Below are positions 21,108-28,117 of a stretch of 38,336 nt of DNA, piece after piece (position 1 is the stretch's first letter; each line of letters starts with the position of its first letter). The stretch comes from Pseudomonadota bacterium. GTDB lineage: Bacteria; Pseudomonadota; Gammaproteobacteria; Pseudomonadales; Azotimanducaceae. The notes beneath the pieces are model-generated. The model did no database searches. It had not been told where the DNA came from and worked only from the letters and a program-made list of their open reading frames with translations. The stretch spans positions 1-38,336 of the forward strand of contig JACZXW010000013.1 in the NCBI GenBank assembly GCA_022571415.1, read 5' to 3'. The position numbers and the translations under genes were made by a program.

Positions 21108-22367
21108 GTGGCTGCTAGAAATATCTTCTATGCGCAGTCAGGCGGTGTCACAGCAGTAATTAATGCCACCGCCTGCGGTGTCATTGAGGCTGCAAGAGTC
21201 GAGAGAAAACTGGGGAAGGTTCTTGCCGGTCGCAATGGGATTATCGGTGCCCTGCGCGAAGAGCTGATCGACACGTCCAGGGAGACGAGGAGCGCCATTG
21301 CGGCTTTAAGACATACCCCGAGCGGTGCGTTTGGATCCTGCCGATACAAGTTGAAATCGATCGAAGATAATCCCACGGAATACGAAAGGCTGATTGAAGT
21401 CTTCAAGGCTCACGACATCGGTTATTTTTTTTACAATGGCGGCGGGGATTCTCAGGACACTGCCAACAAAATATCGGGACTCAGCAAAATTATGGGCTAT
21501 CCGTTGACCTGTATTGGTATTCCAAAGACGGTAGATAATGATTTACCCTGCACCGATACCTGCCCCGGTTTTGGCTCAGTTGCGAAATATGTCGCGGTTT
21601 CTACGCTCGAAGCAGGGCTGGATGTGGCGTCAATGGCAGAGAGTTCCACAAAAATATTCGTGCTTGAGGTGATGGGACGTCATGCAGGCTGGATCGCGGC
21701 AGCCGGAGCTTTGGCAAAACGTAACAGCTTTGATCCACCACACATCATTATTTTCCCCGAAATATCCTTTGATCGGAAAAATTTTTTAAAAAAAGTAAAG
21801 GAAACGGTAAACAGAACCGGCTATTGCGTCATCGTGGCATCCGAAGGCGCGCGCTATGCGAGTGGAACCTACCTCGCAGACGCGGGAATGAAAGATGCAT
21901 TCGGTCATACACAGCTCGGTGGCGTCGCGCCCACCTTAGTGGATATGATCAGGGATGCCCATGGCTACAAGTGCCACTGGTCAGTGGCTGACTATCTGCA
22001 ACGGGCAGCCAGACATCTGGCTTCGGCAACTGATGTGGAACAGGCCTATGCTGTTGGCGCGGCGGCGGTACGATTTGCGCTGGCAGGAAAGAATGCGGTC
22101 ATGCCCGTTATTATTCGAAACAAGGGCAAAAAGTATTCATGGAGCATCGGTGAAGTGCCGCTATCAAAGGTCGCCAATAAGGAAAAGAAATTGCCGCGAT
22201 CCTTTATCTCGAAGGATGGCTACGGCATTACGCCCAAAGGCCGACGGTATCTTGAACCCCTGATAGCAGGAGAAGATCCGCCACCCTACAAAAATGGCAT
22301 ACCGGTATACGTCCGGTTGAAAAATCAACTGGTCAGGAAAAAACTTCCGCCATTCGAAATTACCTGA
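21108..22367 (+). CDS. pfp: Pyrophosphate-dependent 6-phosphofructokinase
   Basis: Reversible phosphorylation of fructose 6-phosphate with PPi (and the reverse in gluconeogenesis or CO2 fixation), cytosolic. The 419-residue protein has the phosphofructokinase fold with GGGDSQD (111-117), in which Asp114 stands where ATP enzymes have Gly104, and IPKTVDNDL (138-146), where Lys140 replaces the Gly124 of ATP enzymes; both are marks of PPi use. MGRHAGW (194-200) is the F6P site. It starts at a GTG six bases after GGAGG. Downstream, on the other strand, lie a CMD-fold gene and a membrane pyrophosphatase, another PPi enzyme. Related genes are adjacent in some methanotrophs and thiotrophic symbionts. 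Confidence 0.93.
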   Translation: MAARNIFYAQSGGVTAVINATACGVIEAARVERKLGKVLAGRNGIIGALREELIDTSRETRSAIAALRHTPSGAFGSCRYKLKSIEDNPTEYERLIEVFKAHDIGYFFYNGGGDSQDTANKISGLSKIMGYPLTCIGIPKTVDNDLPCTDTCPGFGSVAKYVAVSTLEAGLDVASMAESSTKIFVLEVMGRHAGWIAAAGALAKRNSFDPPHIIIFPEISFDRKNFLKKVKETVNRTGYCVIVASEGARYASGTYLADAGMKDAFGHTQLGGVAPTLVDMIRDAHGYKCHWSVADYLQRAARHLASATDVEQAYAVGAAAVRFALAGKNAVMPVIIRNKGKKYSWSIGEVPLSKVANKEKKLPRSFISKDGYGITPKGRRYLEPLIAGEDPPPYKNGIPVYVRLKNQLVRKKLPPFEIT

Positions 22368-23076: not shown

Positions 23077-25101
23077 TTACAACAATGGCGCGATAACCAG
23101 GCTGACGATTGCCATCACATTGATAAGGATGTTCATGGCGGGTCCGGAAGTATCCTTGAATGGATCGCCCACGGTATCTCCCACAACAGTTGCGGCGTGG
23201 ACGTCAGATCCCTTGCCACCTAGATTTCCTTTTTCTACGTACTTCTTGGCGTTGTCCCAGGCGCCGCCTGCATTGGCCATCATCAGAGCCAGTAGCACAC
23301 AACCAAGCAAAGCGCCGGCCAGCATACCACCGAGGGTTTCAGCGCCCAGGCCGAAACCGACGACAGCAGGCATAGACACTGCCAGTACGCCGGGAAGGAT
23401 CATCTTCTTCAGTGCCGCTTTGGTGGCGATGTCGATGCATTTTGCATGATCAGGATCTGCCTTTCCTTCCATCAGACCTTCTATCTCGCGAAACTGGCGA
23501 CGAATCTCTTCAATCATCTCCATGGCAGCATCACCGACCGCGGTCATGGTGATGGATGCGATCAGGAAAGGCAGCATGCCTCCGATGAAGAGACCCACGA
23601 GAACATCAGGGTCGGAGAGTTCCAGGGAAAACCCCGGATTATTTGCCGTCATGGTTTCGACGAAAGCGGCGATAATAGCGAGCGCAGCAAGTGCGGCCGC
23701 ACCGATTGCAAACCCTTTGCCGATTGCTGCGGTGGTGTTACCGACTTCGTCGAGACCGTCGGTAATCTTTCGGACATCTTCACCAAGACCGCCCATTTCT
23801 GCAATACCACCAGCGTTATCAGCGACCGGGCCATATGCATCCAGTGCCATTGTCATGCCCACGGTTGCAAGCATACCGACTGCGGCTATTCCCACACCGT
23901 ATATACCGGCGAGTCCCGTTGATACATAAATAATAGTTGCGATGACGAGGATAGGGATCACTACAGACTCCATGCCAATGGCGAGGCCGGTGATCAGGAC
24001 GGTCGCAGGACCGGTTTTACCGGCTTCCGCGATTTTTATAATGGGCCCTTTTGACGTGTAGTACTCCGTAACGAGACCGATCACTATCCCGCCAGCGGTG
24101 CCAGCAACGATTGCCCACCAGACTTCTGTTGCAATACCAGCGAAATCCACGAGGAAATAGGCCGCAATGATCAATGCAACGGCAGACAACTGGTGTCCCA
24201 TCCTCAGCGCAGTTTCCGGTGCGCTGCCCGACATACCGCGGACGATTAAAATACCGATAATTGAACAAACCAGGCCAATAGATGCCAGCGCCAGTGGCAG
24301 GAACATCAGCGTGGACTGACCAGAACCGGGGGCAAGCGTGTTGATGCCAAATTCGGCATCAATAGCCAGGGTGGAGGCGATAGCAATCGTGGCGATCATG
24401 GCGCCACAGTAAGATTCGAAAATATCCGAACCCATGCCAGCCACATCGCCTACGTTGTCGCCGACATTATCGGCGATAACGCCCGGGTTGCGGGGATCAT
24501 CTTCCGGAATACCGGCTTCGATCTTTCCCACCAGGTCGGCACCAATATCCGCGCTTTTGGTGAATATGCCACCACCAACCCGGGAGAAGAGCGCTACGCT
24601 GGAAGCGCCCATGCCAAAACCATGGATGGCATGAACCGTATGCGGGTCACCGCCGAAATACCAGTATAGAGTCCCTAGTCCAATGAGGCCAAGTGAGGCG
24701 ACACACAGGCCCATAATTGAACCGCCGTAGAAAGCGACCGTCAGCGCCTCCGCTGCACCAGAATTCTGGGCGGCAGTGGTCGTTCGCACATTAGCCTTGG
24801 TCGCAGCAAACATGCCAAGGTAGCCGGCTGCGGCGGAAGTTACGGCGCCGACCGCGAAGGACAGAGCCGTGTTCCAGCCGAGGTCCGACACCAGGATGAG
24901 CAGGAACAGGGGTGCCGCGAATAACAACAGCATTGAGTATTCGCGGTGCATAAAAACCATGGCGCCTTCGTGAATCGCATCTGCGATCTTCCGGATTTTG
25001 GCTTCTCCTTCCGGGTACCTGGTCATCAGGACATAGATAATGAAGGCACAAACCAGCCCAAGCACACCAAAGATAGGTGGCAATTGTGTGAAACTACTCA
25101 T
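23077..25101 (-). CDS. hppA: Membrane-bound ion-pumping pyrophosphatase, K+-dependent class
   Basis: Hydrolyses PPi and pumps H+ or Na+ across the inner membrane. The 674-residue protein has about 16 helices, with the PPi-binding [20 protein letters not shown] (176-195) and DNVGDNVGD (211-219). The [10 protein letters not shown] motif (454-463) has Ala458 and Gly461, the K+-dependent signature; K+-independent enzymes have Lys and Thr at these places. The gate-region glutamate is Glu229 in GSDIFES, the position found in Na+-pumping members and in some H+ pumps, so the transported ion is uncertain. A GGA ribosome site lies 8 nt before the ATG. Downstream is the repeat at 22978-23054 and a CMD gene; the PPi-PFK gene lies just beyond. 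Confidence 0.97.
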
Positions 25102-27098: not shown

Positions 27099-27539
27099 AT
27101 GAACCTGCGGCAGCTCGTTATTACAGTTTTACTGCTTTCCCTGAGCCATAGTGTTTCCGGAGGCAGTGTCAGCCTGGCTGGCAAGACGCTTGACCCGCCA
27201 GAGTTCCTACCCGTGGATGAGGCTTTCCTGCTAACCGCCAGTAAAAGCGGAGACAGCATACAGCTTCATTGGCTGCTGCAACCCGGTTACTACCTGTACA
27301 GGAAGCGCTTCAGTTTTACCGGGCTTGAGGGTTTACCGGAAATACCCGAAGGGGAACAGAAACACGATGAGTTTTTCGGTGATGTAGAGGTCTATTACGA
27401 TGAATTGGTGATTTCCATCCCTTTTTCTGGTAGTTCTAGGCAAGATAGCGCTAAATTCACGGTAGAATACCAGGGGTGTGCGGATGCAGGATTGTGTTAT
27501 CCGGTGCAGAGCAGAGAATTTATCTTGAATAATTTGTAG
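27099..27539 (+). CDS. Stand-alone DsbD alpha (N-terminal) domain, truncated DsbD
   Basis: A 146-residue protein matching only the periplasmic N-terminal domain of DsbD, the reductant-delivery domain that reduces DsbC, DsbG and CcmG. A signal peptide (MNLRQLVITVLLLSLSHSVSG) precedes QPGYYLYRKRF and the redox pair Cys127 and Cys133 in EYQGCADAGLCYPV. Full DsbD is about 570 residues with a membrane domain and C-terminal thioredoxin domain; both are missing, and the 146 bp after the stop hold no membrane-segment coding remnant. It lies directly before aroQ, exactly where dsbD sits in related genomes, so this is a reduced dsbD. The ATG at 27099 is preferred to 26985, which overlaps the divergent lipoprotein. 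It may work with a separate CcdA/ScsB-like partner. Confidence 0.85.
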   Translation: MNLRQLVITVLLLSLSHSVSGGSVSLAGKTLDPPEFLPVDEAFLLTASKSGDSIQLHWLLQPGYYLYRKRFSFTGLEGLPEIPEGEQKHDEFFGDVEVYYDELVISIPFSGSSRQDSAKFTVEYQGCADAGLCYPVQSREFILNNL

Positions 27540-27685
27540 CTAAAATCTAGAAACGTGCAAAAGTACATTTGCAGCCTGCTCCTATGAGGTTAGTGGGCCA
27601 TTCCTAAGAATTAAAAGCTCAAATACTACTGTCATCTCCTAGGAAAGTAGACTAAATTGACGGTTTCTCCCGGAAAATTCGAAAT

Positions 27686-28117
27686 ATGGCTAAATTACTC
27701 GTACTTCACGGACCGAATCTGAACCTATTGGGTAGCCGTGAACCGGAGGTATACGGGACTGATACGCTGGAAGATATTAACCGACGTCTGCAGGCCCAGG
27801 TTGAGGCCAGCGGTCATGAATTTGAAGCATTTCAGTCCAATGCGGAACATGAGCTCATTGACAAGATTCATGAAGCTAAGGGGTCTGTATCATTCATTGT
27901 GATTAATCCGGGGGCCTATACCCATACCAGTATCGCATTGAGGGATGCGTTCCTGGGTGTGAGTATTCCGTTCATTGAGATCCACCTGTCCAACGTGCAT
28001 AGCCGCGAAGACTTTCGACAACAATCCTTCCTTTCTGACATTGCGCAGGGTGTCATCACCGGCCTTGGTTCCCAGGGTTACGAGATGGCGGTCGAGGCAG
28101 CACTCAAAAAAATCTGA
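27686..28117 (+). CDS. aroQ: 3-dehydroquinate dehydratase, type II
   Basis: Third step of the shikimate pathway: dehydrates 3-dehydroquinate, cytosolic dodecamer. The 143-residue length is normal. Visible are the N-terminal [18 protein letters not shown] with catalytic Tyr23, [29 protein letters not shown] and [15 protein letters not shown] with the second catalytic His. It is the first gene of the aroQ-accB-accC cluster, with 21 nt to accB. No strong ribosome site is seen at the ATG. Confidence 0.97.

Follow-up and report, generated by a model that had tools for sequence, protein, structure and literature searches.

The alpha-domain gene ahead of aroQ

The plus strand of the analyzed stretch of DNA (38,336 nt in full, hereafter the window) carries a stand-alone DsbD alpha-domain gene at 27099-27539, stop codon included, an assignment based on Pfam, NCBIfam, and the copies in congeners. 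The frame is open from ATG to TAG and encodes 146 aa. DsbD_N (PF11412) was the only match in the Pfam scan of the product (E 5.1e-31, residues 35-142), placed at 27201-27524 by the profile search of the genome, and only positions 5-139 of the 574 positions of the NCBIfam DsbD model were covered. Judged from hydrophobicity alone, the N-terminus is likely a signal peptide of approximately residues 1-22 (27099-27164, with a presumed end), and the structural model has a helix at residues 4-15. Cys127 (codon 27477-27479) and Cys133 (codon 27495-27497), located by sequence and alignment, are the sole cysteines and form a CX5C motif. The cap loop DEFFG (residues 90-94, 27366-27380) was aligned to DEFYG of E. 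coli nDsbD (1L6P), and its residues D90, F93, and G94 were invariant across 42 aligned sequences. After a spacer of 146 nt (27540-27685), aroQ starts on the same strand (27686-28117) and marks the dsbD locus; judging from their sequences, we take the genes 3′ of the alpha gene to be aroQ, accB, and accC. When 56 beta-gamma queries were run by tblastn against 27530-27700, nothing was found below E 0.19, and the matches in the whole window sat in the alpha domain itself. As had been claimed from the sequence, the spacer thus holds no detectable remnant of the membrane or thioredoxin domain.

The comparison with E. coli nDsbD (1L6P) by phmmer gave an E of 8e-21, and the aligned part included the cap loop DEF(Y/F)G as well as the active site YQGCADAG(F/L)CYP. 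The AlphaFold2 model, calculated with 42 sequences, reached a mean pLDDT of 87. Its 18 best Foldseek matches were all nDsbD structures, with 3pfu, 1jpe, and 1l6p at the top (E ~4e-12) and the DsbC-DsbDalpha complex 1jzd at rank 5, while the N-terminal domain of ScsB (6c29) appeared at rank 19. The product is predicted to have the nDsbD fold, and the alignment indicates that the aromatic cap loop shielding the cysteines is retained; with regard to both sequence and model, the domain looks functional. Modeled fold, CX5C motif, and DEF(Y/F)G loop are shared with nDsbD of E. coli and Neisseria (1L6P, 1JPE, 3PFU, 1JZD, 6DPS); the role of the nDsbD cap loop, including F70, is described in PMC7347389.

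DsbD-family proteins with missing domains have been described before, such as DsbD2 of Legionella, which has no alpha domain, and CcdA, which is the beta domain alone (PMC4491210 and PMC4460558). However, these keep the membrane part and lack alpha, and the gene in the window is the reverse. It is not a ScsB either, as the ScsB alpha domain carries CX3C or CX4C, is joined to ScsB-type membrane and gamma domains in one chain, and lies across a branch with 100% support from the type in the window. A stand-alone CcdA would consist of the membrane domain only, whereas DsbD_N is the sole Pfam match here.

DsbD itself is the textbook three-domain thiol relay in a single chain, and split-domain experiments have reportedly been done with the E. 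coli protein. While nDsbD is one of the three domains in that chain, the alpha domain in the window is a whole gene by itself; PF11412 and the cysteine pair are present, PF02683 and the gamma domain are absent from the chain. Full-length dsbD lies upstream of aroQ, i.e. at the same place, in Pseudomonas and in some relatives (L020, L035), and the alpha locus is therefore the old dsbD locus. In summary of the locus, the frame at 27099-27539 is the DsbD alpha domain alone, with cysteine pair and cap loop kept, which bears out the original prediction of a dsbD position ahead of aroQ that encodes only a signal peptide and this domain. A description of a natural stand-alone DsbD alpha domain was not found in the literature searched, which lay mostly outside subscription journals.

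Stand-alone alpha domains and ScsB-like proteins in relatives

The alpha query matched 54 of 58 genomes (the window's own and 57 relatives), and the short form was present in 5/5 genomes of the window's genus. Of 150 family genomes surveyed, 142 matched PF11412 and 131 matched PF02683, and the stand-alone alpha proved to be widespread. Among the matches listed, 53 of the 150 genomes, from 13 genus codes, have a stand-alone alpha, defined as a PF11412 match that is listed and falls within an open frame below 300 aa; the listed matches are the stronger-scoring ones, so the count is at least 53, and closure of the frame inside the contig was confirmed on the DNA for 30 of the 53. A partial match in a frame of 325 aa (G170) was left off, and G119 is off the list because the contig ends at its alpha frame and the membrane part is found on another contig.

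Counting the window and 37 other loci, there are 38 distinct stand-alone copies, and in 33 of them aroQ follows directly 3′ on the same strand at a distance of -1 to +266 nt. For the other five, the copy of G001 stops at the contig end, and no aroQ was found in the stretch examined for G010, G085, G100, and G054. A stand-alone alpha gene before aroQ was also found in other families (G048, G050), in Litoricola (L060), and on family-unassigned contigs (L034, L055, L056, L059). G054, a genome outside the family, has its stand-alone alpha away from aroQ alongside a full-length DsbD, hence the two can coexist there. Both stand-alone and longer forms occur within single genera (g7, g8, g33, g58). 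On the alpha tree, nine changes between the stand-alone and long states are needed, two of them forced by starred branches; in the shorter alpha alignment with ScsB added, the starred branches force one.

Four stand-alone copies of genus g58 (L165, L171, L172, L173; 191-196 aa) end in a hydrophobic segment with a basic terminus and are, by this composition, likely membrane-anchored. The copy of G048 (L094, 1791-2552, plus strand) has a 253-aa frame from a GTG start with a LASC lipobox-like motif.

All four congeners encode a ScsB-like protein of approximately 700 aa away from the alpha gene. Throughout the survey, the ScsB-like class was assigned by score and frame length, and the eight such proteins that were scanned for domains, three of them from congeners, all contained DsbD_N, DsbD_TM, and Thioredoxin_7. 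For one of the ScsB-like proteins (P0002), the best solved match was 6c29, the ScsB N-terminal domain. The ScsB alpha motif is mostly CX3C, with CX4C in G010, G011, and G016; in G017 it reads WLVCKDVCIPE. The ScsB-like protein of G010 (L105, 596-3874, minus strand) has 1092 aa and an extra C-terminal redoxin/AhpC-TSA-like domain, and other g7 and g58 genomes have ScsB-like frames of 1096-1157 aa.

Across the family, a ScsB-like protein was found in 46 of the 53 listed stand-alone genomes. Membrane domains of the DsbD type, or fused ones, occurred in 71 genomes, of which 5 had a ScsB-like protein (Fisher p 9e-21, a statistic that ignores kinship among the genomes), and in none of the 53. The set of 71 consists of 56 genomes with a high-scoring DsbD_TM match (partial in G119 and G120) and 15 with a low-scoring one in the alpha frame. 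The 26 genomes with neither a listed stand-alone alpha nor such a membrane domain were left out of the comparison; a ScsB-like protein is present in 14 of them, and a weakly matching stand-alone alpha may be present in some. One of these 26 is G112, whose 590-aa protein is a fusion according to the beta-gamma tree but whose membrane domain scored under the threshold. A tree-aware pair test with 68 partly hand-picked rows (26/33 vs 2/35) yielded six pairs on the best tree and one on well-supported branches, with which significance is out of reach, and the co-occurrence may therefore owe much to kinship. The two genes share a contig in 3 of the 46 genomes (G061, G085, G100), more than 500 kb apart. 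Within the family survey, the stand-alone alpha replaces full-length DsbD and is usually accompanied by a ScsB-type reductase. A frame of 227-234 aa with DsbD_TM only, CcdA-like, was additionally seen in two stand-alone genomes with a ScsB-like protein (L112 on G001:C93, and G116:C68).

Among the matches listed, 7 of the 53 stand-alone genomes have no ScsB-like match, and their completeness is 94% (G000, the window's own), 84% (G095), 96% (G105), 86% (G110), 90% (G126), 92% (G131), and 80% (G147). G105 is assembled in 30 contigs and has neither a ScsB-like nor a DsbD_TM match; G048 is 99% complete and has no DsbD_TM match at all. For these seven genomes and G048, either assembly gaps or another donor would account for the missing partner.

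The most informative result concerns fusions: in 13 of 55 full-length rows, a DsbD-type alpha domain (CX5C) is joined to ScsB-type beta and gamma domains (NLMPC..P, A.WC..C). These chimeras (L011, L019, L030, L032, L036, L037, L043, L057, L128, L130, L148, L151, L152) come from related genera, Stenotrophomonas, and Pseudoxanthomonas, and in the stretch examined aroQ is the next gene after 6 of the 13. In the beta-gamma tree, from which two short rows were dropped, a branch with 100% support has the 42 DsbD-type rows on one side and the 17 ScsB rows together with the 13 fusions on the other. The alpha tree, which has few columns and from which one ScsB row without a motif match was dropped, splits off 16/16 ScsB alpha domains with 100% support, while the 13 fusion alphas stay with the DsbD type. 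Together, the two trees lead to the conclusion that a DsbD-type alpha naturally shares a chain with ScsB-type membrane domains. The fusions may be read as a Rosetta-stone hint of a partnership between alpha and ScsB, and we infer from them that the free alpha could pair with ScsB in trans. The original prediction had anticipated neither how widespread the arrangement is, nor the existence of chimeras between this alpha type and the membrane domains of ScsB, nor that ScsB has a different alpha domain of its own.

Electron supply of the free alpha domain

With a probability of roughly 60%, we consider the free alpha domain to be a periplasmic nDsbD that works as an electron adaptor, reduced by ScsB and feeding clients of the DsbC/CcmG type. 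Electrons would pass from cytoplasmic thioredoxin to the membrane (beta) domain of ScsB and on to its gamma domain, which would reduce the Cys127-Cys133 disulfide of the free alpha. The latter would in turn pass electrons to classical DsbD clients, for example DsbC and, in genomes that have it, CcmG. The alpha domain of ScsB itself, whose active-site spacing differs (CX3C/CX4C), would serve other clients. What the genomes show is the parts and their co-occurrence, and the transfer from gamma over free alpha to DsbC/CcmG is a proposal. DsbC_N was detected in 55 of 58 genomes, including the window's own and G048. CcmG exceeded its cut-off in 54 of the 58, among them all four congeners. ScsB, known from Proteus, Salmonella, and Caulobacter, would be the partner in the relatives; its periplasmic alpha, membrane beta, and thioredoxin-like gamma domains and its reduction of ScsC are described in PMC8900818. 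Since many relatives share the split, and most of them have a ScsB-type reductase that could feed the alpha, it seems that a known redox machine has been split in nature and its pieces paired anew. A free alpha that replaces DsbD, goes with ScsB, and is fused to ScsB-type domains in related genera would demonstrate a natural modularity of the relay. As a candidate adaptor that would link ScsB to the classical clients of DsbD, it also bears on the role of ScsB in CcmG reduction, which was stated as not analyzed in 2015 (PMC4460558 and PMC4491210).

Several findings count against the adaptor. ScsB carries an alpha domain itself, and therefore an additional one is not obviously needed; the two genes do not lie next to each other; the seven listed stand-alone genomes named above have no ScsB-like match, and G048 has no DsbD_TM match. 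The window's own genome is one of the seven. Its assembly gave no match to the DsbD_TM profile, although the same search was positive in 10 of 14 control genomes, and no match to a congener's ScsB, a query that had no positive control. No CcmG exceeded the cut-off in this genome, with three weaker matches. The own genome thus lacks both CcmG (over the cut-off) and ScsB, and 4/4 congeners have both; either gaps or a reduced genome would explain the two absences. A membrane partner encoded elsewhere, one of the options originally put forward, is supported for the lineage by the ScsB-like proteins of all four congeners and most listed stand-alone genomes, but no such protein was found in the window's own genome.

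The neighborhood of scsB was examined with regard to this gap. In congeners, scsB sits just after a presumably carboxyltransferase-like gene, and the order in G002 and G004 is, judging from the sequences, pntB, pntA, carboxyltransferase, scsB, two MaoC genes, ExbD, phosphoglycerate mutase, and TRAP genes. The carboxyltransferase and MaoC neighbors have only paralogues of 29% and 38% in the own genome. A 19.9-kb DNA query from G002 recovered the TRAP-side flank on contig C79, plus two short segments from other contigs, and nothing of the pntA/pntB side was found in the own genome. On C79, the shared gene order starts at approximately base 2130, and the bases from there back to the contig start match no ORF of the neighborhood. 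The own assembly has 2.56 Mb in 159 contigs at 94% completeness, and the congeners have 3.2-5.2 Mb. The scsB block is either unassembled or lost; because the neighbors of scsB are missing as well, the orphan status of the alpha domain may be an artefact of the incomplete assembly. If the adaptor reading holds, the window's own genome would presumably encode its ScsB in a part missing from the assembly.

A full-length DsbD elsewhere in this genome, which would have contradicted the original prediction, was searched for and not found: no DsbD_TM match occurs anywhere in the assembly, and the second PF11412 match belongs to a 605-aa ORF on contig C23. This ORF (L002, 1480-3297, minus strand) has a C-terminal DsbD_N domain (residues 486-599), and the rest is weakly glycosidase/epimerase-like. 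We take its N-terminal part to be DUF255/YyaL-like and the adjoining ORF to be transposase-like.

Instead of ScsB, the alpha domain might be served by an unrelated donor, e.g. a PF13386-type membrane protein or a c-type cytochrome, and work without any protein of the DsbD, ScsB, or CcdA type. The own genome, G105, and G048 have a stand-alone alpha and no DsbD_TM match, DsbC_N is kept in G048 and the own genome, and a cytochrome can stand in for DsbD, as cytochrome c restores CcmG reduction in dsbD mutants (PMC8782879). Nevertheless, the ScsB-like proteins in 46 of the 53 listed stand-alone genomes and the fact that several scsB neighbors are missing in the own genome, which fits a gap, make this rather unlikely in general. 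Limited to the lineages of the window, G105, and G048, an alpha domain that survives without a DsbD-family membrane protein and is reduced by a non-homologous transmembrane or cytochrome donor is a distinctly doubtful proposition; if true, such a donor would be a further route of electrons to the periplasmic thiol network.

It is also unlikely that the free alpha, instead of being an electron hub for DsbC/CcmG, serves ScsB or oxidants as a client or buffer, e.g. in redox protection or copper handling. ScsB is tied to copper tolerance (PMC8900818), and a lipobox-like form (L094) as well as C-terminally anchored forms (4/38) do occur. However, sequence, cap loop, and modeled fold resemble nDsbD, which was solved in complex with DsbC and CcmG (PMC7347389), and the own genome has retained DsbC_N. 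The adaptor reduced by ScsB remains the preferred reading.

Conservation of the short form

The short alpha gene was found in 4/4 congeners with open frames of 148-183 aa, whose stop codons lie at a comparable place, within approximately 10 residues. Of ten congener pairs compared by NG86, three were saturated; the other seven had a finite dS and gave dN/dS values of 0.11-0.26, although most of these seven are near saturation. CX5C was retained in 38/38 stand-alone rows (37 distinct loci, L133 being equal to L167) and in the window. The cap-loop pattern is looser, and a rough pattern search missed or misplaced the loop in several stand-alone rows. A pseudogene was judged unlikely from the conservation in congeners, the dN/dS values, and the lack of remnants, and purifying selection and the conserved CX5C agree with the original view of an intact gene.

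The gene could still be what is left of a dsbD in decay, having persisted by chance once beta and gamma had been deleted, as it sits at the old dsbD locus and these domains are gone. A stand-alone alpha in 13 genus codes of the family (among the matches listed) and in other families (G048, G050), together with the dN/dS and CX5C data, has already largely refuted this highly improbable reading. That the stop at 27539 is a sequencing or assembly error is hardly conceivable: the own genome is indeed a draft of 159 contigs, but an error confined to this one assembly is very unlikely because 4/4 congeners carry the short gene with a comparable stop as well, and there is no detectable beta-gamma sequence just downstream nor a DsbD_TM match anywhere in the assembly.

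Further upstream in the window, two genes lie close together which, judging from their sequences, are presumably phosphofructokinase-like (21108-22367) and membrane pyrophosphatase-like (23077-25101), and they perhaps point to a pyrophosphate-linked glycolysis.
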